Both the position numbers and the translations under genes were made by a program. 64,000 nt of DNA. It comes from Corynebacterium renale (GTDB lineage: Bacteria; Actinomycetota; Actinomycetes; Mycobacteriales; Mycobacteriaceae). This document shows positions 53,422 through 56,088 of this stretch, in pieces (within the stretch, counting starts at the first letter, position 1; each line of letters starts with the position of its first letter). Location: positions 1,116,001-1,180,000 of the forward strand of contig NZ_PDJF01000001.1 in assembly GCF_002563965.1 (NCBI RefSeq), read 5' to 3'. The notes beneath the pieces were generated by a model. It made no database searches and had not been told where the DNA came from. It was given only the letters and a program-made list of their open reading frames with translations.

Positions 53422-54498
53422 TTATCCAGTGGCGCGCATCTTGCGCACCAAGATCAACAGGAATGGGGCGCCAACCAGGGCAGTGATGATGCCGATCGAC
53501 AGCTCGCGTGGCGCTAATAGTGTGCGCGCTCCGACGTCAGCCCACATGAGGAGAACCGCGCCGAGCAGTGCAGCAACGGGCAACATGGTGCGGTGCGAGC
53601 CGCCGACTGCGCGGCGTGCCAGGTGGGGGATGACCAAGCCGACGAAGCTGATGGAACCCGCCATGGCGACGAGCGCGCCGACGAGCAAACATGAGAGAAC
53701 GAGCATGAGGGCGCGGAACCGTTCCGGGTTGATGCCTGCGGTGAGGGCGGTTTCGTCGCCAATGCCTAAAGCGTCTAGGTTGCGGCCCCACACAATAGCG
53801 ATGGCCAGGCACACGAGGACCGTGATGACGCACACCAGCAGGGCGCCGTCCCACTTGGCTAAGCCGAGGGAGCCGAGCAGCCAGAACATGACGGAACGGG
53901 AGCCTTCGGCGTCGTCGGAGGCGAAGATGAGGAACGAGGTGACTGCGGACAGGGCGTAGCCGATGGCCACGCCGGCCATGAGCAGGCGGATCGAGGTGAG
54001 GCGGCCCTGCGAGCGTGCTACCGCGTAGAGCAGGAAGGACGCGGCTAGTGCGCCGAGGAAAGCGGAACCTTGCAGGGCGTAATCACCGAAGGCTGCGCCC
54101 GCTCCGAAGAGGATCGCCAGGGCCGCGCCGGTGGAGGCGCCACCGTTAATGCCGATGATGTACGGGTCGGCGAGCATGTTGCGCACCAAAGTCTGCAGGA
54201 TGGCGCCCGCGATCGACAGGCCGGCACCTACGAAAAGGCCAAGGATCGCGCGTGGGGCGCGGATGTCCCATACGATGGTGTCTTTCAGGGATTCCACCGT
54301 CAGTTCCGTGCCAAATACGTGGTGGGAAATGATATTCCACGTTTCGCCAGCGCTCACCGGGACGGAACCTACGCCGATGTTGATTGTCAGCGTCGCAATA
54401 AGGGCAAGGAAAAGGCCCACCATCCATATCGTTGCTATACGACGATGATGGCGGAAACCGAGAATGTCATCGCTTGTCTTCTGCCTACTTTCAATCAC
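53422..54498 (-). CDS. ABC transporter permease (FecCD family)
   Basis: The 358-residue FecCD permease is the first gene of the operon. WDIRAPRAILGLFVGAGLSIAGAI, ADPYIIGINGGASTGAAL and ISFVGLVIPHLARRAVGG are class motifs. The GTG start is 7 nt after TAATCT (54511-54506), which is 17 bp from TTGACC (54534-54529), so the operon has a near-consensus leaderless promoter. Single-permease systems function as homodimers. Confidence 0.9.
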   Translation of the reverse strand: MIESRQKTSDDILGFRHHRRIATIWMVGLFLALIATLTINIGVGSVPVSAGETWNIISHHVFGTELTVESLKDTIVWDIRAPRAILGLFVGAGLSIAGAILQTLVRNMLADPYIIGINGGASTGAALAILFGAGAAFGDYALQGSAFLGALAASFLLYAVARSQGRLTSIRLLMAGVAIGYALSAVTSFLIFASDDAEGSRSVMFWLLGSLGLAKWDGALLVCVITVLVCLAIAIVWGRNLDALGIGDETALTAGINPERFRALMLVLSCLLVGALVAMAGSISFVGLVIPHLARRAVGGSHRTMLPVAALLGAVLLMWADVGARTLLAPRELSIGIITALVGAPFLLILVRKMRATG

Positions 54499-54505
54499 GT
54501 ACTTG

Positions 54506-54534
54506 AGATTAGAGGCTCATTGTCAAAAGGTCAA
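54506..54534 (-). promoter_or_regulatory. Promoter of the permease-binding protein-ATPase-methyltransferase operon
   Basis: -35 TTGACC (54534-54529), 17-bp spacer, -10 TAATCT (54511-54506), 7 nt before the GTG. I see no DtxR box of good quality here, unlike the other two siderophore operons. Confidence 0.65.
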
Positions 54535-54548
54535 TTGGGCATAAAAAT

Positions 54549-54581
54549 AACCTGGAAGCGGGGTAAACCCGCTCCCAGGTT
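54549..54581 (-). terminator. Intrinsic terminator after the micropeptide gene
   Basis: AACCTGG/CCAGGTT (54549-54555, 54575-54581) and AGCGGG/CCCGCT (54557-54562, 54568-54573) stack into one stem. On the minus strand it is followed by ATTTTTA. It lies 16 nt after the stop of the 36-codon ORF, which supports a real minus-strand transcript there. Confidence 0.75.
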
Positions 54582-54597
54582 GGGGATTTATAGCTTT

Positions 54598-54708
54598 TTA
54601 CAGCCCGGGTATCAGCCGCGCAATCTGTGGCATGAGCTGCTTCACGATTGGCGCCAACAGGGCAGCCAGACCGCCGATAGCGAACAGAATTCCAACCAGT
54701 CCGCCCAC
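54598..54708 (-). CDS. Hydrophobic micropeptide (36 aa)
   Basis: A minus-strand frame from GTG 54708 encodes a Gly/Leu/Ile-rich helix (VGGLVGILFAIGGLAALLAP) followed by an amphipathic IVKQLMPQIARLIPGL. A strong terminator follows at once. There is no ATG and no clear Shine-Dalgarno, so the start is uncertain. It diverges from the AlbA_2 regulator across the CGACGAT repeats. It could be a membrane-active toxin, a small porin-like or PSM-like peptide, or a small regulatory membrane protein. None of these is established. Confidence 0.5.
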   Translation of the reverse strand: MGGLVGILFAIGGLAALLAPIVKQLMPQIARLIPGL

Positions 54709-54758
54709 GCAGGGGGGCCCGCAGCGTGCCGCGTTGGTCTAAAAGGGAATCGCCAGGA

Positions 54759-54830
54759 ATCGTCGTGCGACGATCGCGACGATTCGCGTAATCGTCGCGC
54801 GACGATTACGACGATTGGCTATAATCGTCG
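54759..54830. repeat. Array of CGACGAT/ATCGTCG inverted repeats
   Basis: Three inverted repeats lie in 72 bp: ATCGTCG-TG-CGACGAT (54759-54774), the perfect 20-bp palindrome TAATCGTCGCGCGACGATTA (54789-54808), and CGACGATT-N6-AATCGTCG (54809-54816, 54823-54830) around the TATAAT -10 box. A further single CGACGATT lies at 54777-54784. This looks like a cooperative operator for the downstream regulator. Confidence 0.8.
54820..54825 (+). promoter_or_regulatory. Consensus -10 box of the AlbA_2 regulator gene
   Basis: TATAAT lies 6 nt before the ATG, inside the third inverted repeat. Transcription would be leaderless and blocked by anything bound to the repeats. Confidence 0.65.
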
Positions 54831-54831
54831 T

Positions 54832-56088
54832 ATGTGGCGTGAAACGTGCAACCTAGAATTTAAGCAACAAGTTTCAGATTCATTCCTTAAGACTGTGAGT
54901 GCTTTCGCAAACGGTAGTGGAGGACAAGTACTCTTCGGCATAACTGATGACGGCGTCCGCGTCGGGTTAGCGGATCCACAAGCCGATGCTCTGCTTATCG
55001 AGAACAAAATAAACACCACCCTCGATCCGATTCCCCCGTACAGTATCGATATCGGGGAGGACGCAACGGTGACATTAACAGTGGAACGGGGTCCGTTTAC
55101 CCCATATTTGTACCGTCGTCAGGCGTACCGTAGGGCTGACTCGTCGACTGTTGCAGTAGATCGGTTGGATTTAGGTAGGCTCATTCTGCAGGGCAGTAAT
55201 CAGACATTTGACGGGCTTGTTTATCGGGGAGACGTTAGTTCTTTAACTTTTGATGCGCTCGGCGAAAAAGTGCAGCATGTCCTCGGTGTTAAAGATTTCG
55301 ATCCTGATGTTCTCAAAACTCTGGAACTGATGACACCCACGGGAGAATACACAAACGCTGCTGCGCTCATGGCTGACCATAATGATTTTCCTGGCATCGA
55401 TATTGCTGTATTTGGGAAAAGCATTAATGAGATCCGGGCACGCCACAATCTCGCTGGAACGTCGTTAATTTTGCAGCTGCATGCTGCGGTTGAGATCATG
55501 CAGCAGACCTATCACTATGAGCTTATCGACGGTACACAGCGCCGCATAGTCGCTTCTATTCCGACCGAAGCCTTCCGCGAGGCCGTCGCTAATGCTCTTG
55601 TGCACCGTCAGTGGGATGTGCCAAGCCATATTCGAATCGCGATGTTCCCCGACCGGATAGAAATAACATCTCCCGGTGGCCTTCCTCCGGGGATTACGGA
55701 GGAAGAATATCTACGTGGCCACTTGTCGTTGCCCAGGAATGTGGTCATAGCTGGCCTCTTTTTCCGCCTCGGATATATAGAAAAATTCGGCACCGGGATT
55801 GTCCGGATTAAACATGCTTACCGCAATTCAGTAAAACAGCCGGTTTTTGAGATTGGCAATGTATCAATCACGGTCACGCTCCCCGTGGTAACAGAAGCTA
55901 ACGAAGTGTCTGCGGAAGAGCTGTCAGTTTTGCGGGCTTTGGAAGACGGCGAAAGTAGCCGAAGCGATGTACAAAATTACACAGGCCTGAGCCGTGATGC
56001 CACGATTCGTGCGCTAAATTCGTTGATTGAAGTCGGTGCCATCAAGCGTATGGGTGCTGGTCCGGCAACAAGGTATCGTCGCATCTAG
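54832..56088 (+). CDS. AlbA_2 (Schlafen-type) ATP-binding regulator with winged helix
   Basis: The 418-residue protein has an N-terminal AlbA_2 domain (LEFKQQVSDSFLKTVSAFAN, GSGGQVLFGITDDG), a middle region, and a C-terminal HATPase_c_4 region (EAFREAVANALVHRQWD, then GGLPPGITEEEYLRGH and FRLGYIEKFGTGI). It ends in a winged helix (SSRSDVQNYTGLSRDATIRAL). Such proteins are usually called transcriptional regulators or ATP-binding proteins; some relatives occur in phage-defence or toxin loci. Composition is more AT-rich than its neighbours, suggesting acquisition. ATG 54832 follows TATAAT by 6 nt. Autoregulation through the upstream repeats is inferred. Confidence 0.8.
   Translation: MWRETCNLEFKQQVSDSFLKTVSAFANGSGGQVLFGITDDGVRVGLADPQADALLIENKINTTLDPIPPYSIDIGEDATVTLTVERGPFTPYLYRRQAYRRADSSTVAVDRLDLGRLILQGSNQTFDGLVYRGDVSSLTFDALGEKVQHVLGVKDFDPDVLKTLELMTPTGEYTNAAALMADHNDFPGIDIAVFGKSINEIRARHNLAGTSLILQLHAAVEIMQQTYHYELIDGTQRRIVASIPTEAFREAVANALVHRQWDVPSHIRIAMFPDRIEITSPGGLPPGITEEEYLRGHLSLPRNVVIAGLFFRLGYIEKFGTGIVRIKHAYRNSVKQPVFEIGNVSITVTLPVVTEANEVSAEELSVLRALEDGESSRSDVQNYTGLSRDATIRALNSLIEVGAIKRMGAGPATRYRRI

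Follow-up and report, generated by a model that had tools for sequence, protein, structure and literature searches.

Closest described systems

The closest described relatives of the gene considered here form a family that joins a Schlafen RNase domain, a histidine-kinase-like ATPase domain and a winged helix-turn-helix (wHTH). The same domain order occurs in a 418-residue protein encoded in a 64,000-nucleotide stretch of the Corynebacterium renale genome (contig NZ_PDJF01000001.1, positions 1,116,001 to 1,180,000; here called the window), although the window gene differs in standing alone next to purS. The words "operator" and "autoregulat" do not occur in the paper on that family. The N-domain of mammalian SLFN13 is an RNase acting on tRNA and rRNA (PMC5862951), and it has the fold of one lobe and the three carboxylates in common with the window Schlafen domain. 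SLFN13, however, has two lobes, while the window protein has one Schlafen domain followed by an ATPase and a winged helix (the wing), and its activity is predicted. The structural-genomics structure of DIP2311 (3lmm, function not stated) is about 20% identical to the window protein, and no operator was found described for it in the literature searched, most subscription journals and all preprints lying outside that coverage. Self-repression through inverted repeats is reportedly a habit of BrxR-type WYL regulators. These regulate phage-defence genes (PMC9122589, PMC9122601) and are separate regulator proteins, whereas effector and repressor would share one chain in the window.

The literature searched contained neither a description of operators for the Schlafen-ATPase-wing family nor an account of how proteins of this build stay quiet. 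We consider it likely that the window gene, a single insert, encodes a self-repressing Schlafen RNase-GHKL ATPase-wing protein whose wing binds a CGACGAT array at its own promoter. The finding points to a possible defence effector acting as its own repressor. Promoter operators that track the wing would be a testable answer to how such proteins remain silent, and might allow operators to be predicted from sequence.

Domains and putative active site

The gene and its domains are as follows.

54832..56088, plus strand: Schlafen (AlbA_2)-HATPase_c_4-winged-helix protein, 418 amino acids (profile and structure matches)
54841..55155, plus strand: Schlafen domain, residues 4-108, with putative active-site codons E4 (54841), E9 (54856) and D39 (54946), aligned to SLFN13 (PMC5862951)
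55624..55881, plus strand: HATPase_c_4 (GHKL-like) domain, residues 265-350 (Pfam; weak kinase matches)
55900..56085, plus strand: C-terminal winged helix, residues 357-418, with R377 (55960) and R393 (56008) (comparison of relatives)

Both SLFN_AlbA_2 and HATPase_c_4 score above their Pfam cut-offs, the latter with 74.7 bits against a cut-off of 26 and with weak PDK fold matches besides; ATP binding is predicted. The C-terminal winged helix that marks the described family is present as well. E4, E9 and D39 correspond to the three active-site carboxylates of SLFN13 and are invariant in 32 of 32 relatives, and the triad is kept in all 18 relatives of a second set that have the region. PADLOC, run on the window protein and a neighbouring small peptide frame, gave partial matches, the best of 2.4e-12 over residues 211-340. 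An earlier note, made from the sequence alone, had called the product an AlbA_2/HATPase_c_4/winged-helix regulator; the domains and the dense operator at its own promoter stand, but the plain label of regulator fits less well, and the likely harmful part is the Schlafen domain. The sequence favours the reading of a Schlafen RNase-GHKL ATPase-winged-helix protein, for which the described family would suggest RNase and anti-phage activity.

Operator array and promoter

Three elements make up the upstream region.

54758..54831, no strand: operator array lying across the -10 box and the start of the transcript; seven CGACGAT half-sites, ordered R F F R F F R, at 54759-54830; geometry shared with relatives in the genus
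54787..54810, no strand: perfect 24-bp palindrome inside the array (inverted-repeat scan)
54820..54825, plus strand: TATAAT, probable -10 box, with ATG 54832 beginning 6 nt downstream (read from sequence)

The repeats reported earlier in the 123-bp gap between a small divergent frame and the Schlafen-type gene are real, as is the gap itself. CGACGAT occurs seven times within 72 bp (54759-54830), and the last inverted pair encloses the TATAAT box, as had been noted; the perfect palindrome is also present, with a length of 24 bp instead of the 20 bp first given. The array exceeds chance. In the 130 bp upstream of the gene, the best 6-mer has seven copies (shuffle mean 2.5; none of 100 shuffles equal), and the best inverted repeat scores 14 (shuffle mean 6.2; none of 200 shuffles as high). 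Since CGACGAT is over-represented across the whole window (34 observed versus 11.9 expected), it is the clustering alone that carries weight. Because the ATG lies only 6 nt past the -10 box, the message is probably leaderless, and from these positions the array would therefore span both the box and the start.

In the 2.35-Mb genome the exact palindrome is confined to the array: ATCGTCGNNCGACGAT matches exactly at two sites, both inside it. Allowing two mismatches added four further sites, which is the total given by the reversed control. The scan covered this sequence, exact or with up to two mismatches; on this basis the circuit seems private to the array locus. At the 5' end of the permease gene (54437-54452), a stretch containing CGACGAT pairs with the last half-site of the array (88% over 16 nt).

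Recurrence of the promoter repeats

To our main comparison we submitted the 130 bp upstream of each relative, scored against dinucleotide shuffles at p<0.05. The first set took in relatives matched from near their start, without L066 and L087; together with the window this gave 31 loci, of which 2 were too short and dropped; 150 control genes were drawn from 201 in the same loci and the purQ loci. Inverted repeats passed in 20 of 29 loci versus 16 of 150 controls (Fisher 1.9e-10), and repeated 6-mers in 13/29 versus 13/150. A second set came from a different bacterial family; 2 of its 20 loci were dropped, the match starting at residue 86-87, and the inverted-repeat counts were 17/18 for relatives and 8/37 for controls (Fisher 2.3e-7). 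These counts are non-independent, as near copies are present (L068/L069/L072, L085/L086, L114/L116, L121/L122 and L011/L013). That most of the tested relatives carry inverted repeats at their promoters is new here, and sequence comparison indicates that an operator over its own promoter is conserved together with the protein.

The geometry itself recurs within the genus. The array upstream of the G196 relative reads ATCGT-N6-ACGAT-N4-ACGAT-N7, with the spacing and 32-bp period of the window and different spacer letters. The pattern ACGAT-N4-ACGAT-N6..8-ATCGT was matched 10 times across 8 of the 242 genomes; five of these matches (in G000, G196 and G025) sit upstream of the relative. G135 retains a degenerate array that the pattern does not match.

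Of nine distant relatives (27-32% identity), six passed the inverted-repeat test; the repeat of one, L060, lies in low-complexity sequence. Within the genus, remote Schlafen-ATPase proteins at loci L011, L012, L013, L014 and L015 (about 27-28% identity) also start downstream of strong inverted repeats, whose letters are very different, so the operator habit may extend over the wider family.

Covariation of wing and operator

Half-sites and cores were picked by eye in the 22 loci whose core was clear; seven of the 29 were excluded as near copies (L069, L072, L086), incomplete proteins (L017, L057) or unclear cores (L061, L084). CG flanks a centre of 10 or 11 bases in 17 of the 22, a spacing that choice by eye may favour. 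Half-site similarity correlated best with identity over residues 375-398 (rho 0.49, p 0.0005), followed by the whole wing (rho 0.255, p 0.008) and the middle part of the protein (rho 0.187, p 0.03). Over the same 22 loci there was no clear correlation with the ATPase (0.10, p 0.16) and none with the Schlafen domain (-0.03, p 0.59). On this comparison, the half-site letters track the recognition helix and not the Schlafen domain.

When every position was examined (1977 residue tests), the top two were Arg377 and Arg393, each present in 8/9 GC-class and 0/13 other loci (p 2.8e-5 uncorrected, about 0.06 corrected for the number of tests; relatedness uncorrected). A prediction that Arg/Arg relatives in the second family have GC-class operators was fixed before the loci were read, and 20 loci were scored by eye. 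Seven of 11 Arg/Arg loci fit and none of the four non-Arg loci (L113, L117, L118, L119) was GC-class; L110, L111 and L112 gave no clear reading, and for L123 and L124 no promoter was in reach. The blind loci alone give about 0.05 (one-tailed, hand-calculated), and the table with three previously seen loci (L061, L084, L086) gives 7/4 versus 0/7 (Fisher 0.013). The two arginines therefore look necessary, but not sufficient, for a GC-class operator; the rule that they suffice was rejected, as 4/11 Arg/Arg loci (L108, L120, L121, L122) fail.

The near-identical L121 and L122, both with Arg377/Arg393, have a CG-free palindrome, GATGAGATA, unlike the other operators read. Genomes G1041 and G1042 (loci L114, L116, L119 and L121-L124) have three or four relatives each, and, among the promoters that were read, copies within one genome differ in operator (L114, L119 and L122 in G1041), as private circuits would need.

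A natural deletion bears on the same question. In the sister genomes G025 and G135 of the genus, the Schlafen domain is missing and an open ATPase-wing frame and the array are retained, which fits binding by the C-terminal part.

Proposed mechanism and alternatives

Because array, ATPase and wing persist where the Schlafen domain has been lost, and because half-sites follow the recognition helix, the protein most probably acts, by way of its wing, as its own repressor. The single inserted gene would encode a Schlafen-type RNase effector fused to an ATPase domain of GHKL type and, at the C-terminus, a winged helix that would bind the CGACGAT array. Bound protein would block the -10 box and the transcript start and keep its own leaderless gene almost silent; the multiple half-sites may allow cooperative binding and steep switching. 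Sensing of a signal by the ATPase part, with phage or translation stress as candidates, would loosen binding, lead to more synthesis and free the RNase, presumably to act on tRNA.

Self-repression is well supported by comparison, if unproved: the domains, the carboxylate triad, the array, its recurrence in relatives, the covariation of operator and helix and the single palindrome locus come from the sequences, and from them we infer binding, repression, RNase and defence activity and a signal. Several observations weigh against the proposed mechanism. Half-sites and cores in the covariation analysis were choices made by eye, and 4 of 11 Arg/Arg loci failed in the blind test of specificity. Nine of the 29 first-set relatives do not reach p<0.05, and repeats also occur at 11-22% of control genes. 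Half of the pattern matches (5/10; one each in G964, G967, G044, G076 and G122) come from genomes that have no close relative. The Schlafen-less copies in G025 and G135 are near-identical there, so that they count as one event, and they may represent decay.

Alternatively, the protein could be a dedicated transcription regulator, its Schlafen (AlbA_2) fold binding nucleic acid without cutting, that represses itself and perhaps a leftward transcript, at which a minus-strand terminator (see below) hints. Array, wing and covariation require no RNase. The SLFN13 triad, invariant in both sets of relatives, argues otherwise, and the lack of a second genome site for the exact palindrome implies few if any other targets, so we hold this reading unlikely. 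A bolder form of self-repression, which we regard as rather improbable, is a one-protein toxin-antitoxin system with operator DNA as the antidote: the DNA-bound Schlafen RNase would be silenced as a gene and inactive as an enzyme, and release would activate enzyme and synthesis together. On that reading the pairing of each wing with its array would turn every such gene into a private circuit, and several could coexist per cell.

Genomic context and distribution

As regards linkage to BREX or other defence genes, the neighbours of the window gene that we examined are iron-type ABC genes and purine genes. Its G+C content is 50.4% (third positions 49.4%) versus 61.1% for the window, third positions of purQ being at 72.6%, and the gene looks foreign. 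purQ was located in 54 of 61 genomes, and the loci of 29 relatives were retrieved for comparison: in 29/29, none of gene, permease and peptide was found in the approximately 1.2 kb before purS. Judged from these loci, the stretch before purS is a lineage-specific insert, which agrees with the insertion between ABC operon and purS proposed previously. DNA 54400-54840 matched its own genome only, among the 61. Such an origin might suggest that the repeats serve something else, as the end or target of a mobile element that delivered the gene or as sites of an unrelated factor. This we consider very unlikely, as they occupy the same promoter position in many genomes with letters that follow the wing, and the far end of the gene has a single CGACGAT copy (56075).

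Within the genus, five of 242 genomes had a match at E<=1e-30, counting its own: besides the latter, G025, G135 and G196 (about 50% identity) and G105 (35%). Other samples contained relatives in 7/291 and 23/148 genomes (E 1e-80) and 14/138 (E 1e-70), and in a phylum sample of 296 its own genome was the sole match (E 1e-60). This protein build is common, 6484 among 7996 scored candidates reaching E<=1e-20. Carriage by viruses or plasmids was considered and rejected: a viral-contig scan returned no relative; distant relatives were present in 41 records of a phage collection (nine covering at least 80%) and 112 plasmid records (19 covering at least 80%). The G196 relative (loci L008, L016, L017) is fragmented, with residues 2-200 (one internal stop) and 188-407 separated by about 1.8 kb; residues 120-361 (one internal stop) form a third piece elsewhere on the contig.

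Small divergent frame and leftward terminator

Two further features lie on the opposite strand.

54598..54708, minus strand: 36-codon hydrophobic frame with GTG start (coding status unsupported)
54549..54581, minus strand: terminator-like hairpin for a leftward transcript, 14-bp stem and T-rich tail (terminator scan; sub-threshold Rfam matches only)

The 36-codon GTG frame exists as the earlier note described it, but the toxic partner seen in it found no backing. Its length is ordinary (787/1000 shuffles of the region contain a frame of at least 36 amino acids), although its hydrophobicity is not (0/1000 shuffles; 1/210 window frames of 30-45 amino acids). Among 201 genomes of the genus a good match was found in its own genome only; three weak hits (E 0.004-0.01), all in long frames of 529-578 amino acids, were for that reason taken as chance. 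A large protein collection, queried with the 46-residue open frame, gave no relative, and plasmids and phages no convincing one. We therefore rejected the peptide as a conserved gene as far as these searches reach, including in relatives with the same repeats, where its absence speaks against the proposal by the earlier note's own standard. Neither a ribosome-binding site nor a leaderless start is visible for it, and a divergent small hydrophobic frame occurs in 5 of the 46 relatives that have 400 bp of upstream sequence, none alike. A toxin switch, with the membrane peptide as toxin, the AlbA_2 protein as repressor and both read from the array, is most unlikely despite the divergent layout, the frame's own terminator and its unusual hydrophobicity.

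An RNA element at the locus was likewise rejected, all three Rfam matches being below threshold. The strong terminator ascribed to the frame was recovered at 54549-54581, and its minus-strand orientation suggests that a short transcript runs leftward in the interval separating the array from the ABC permease gene.
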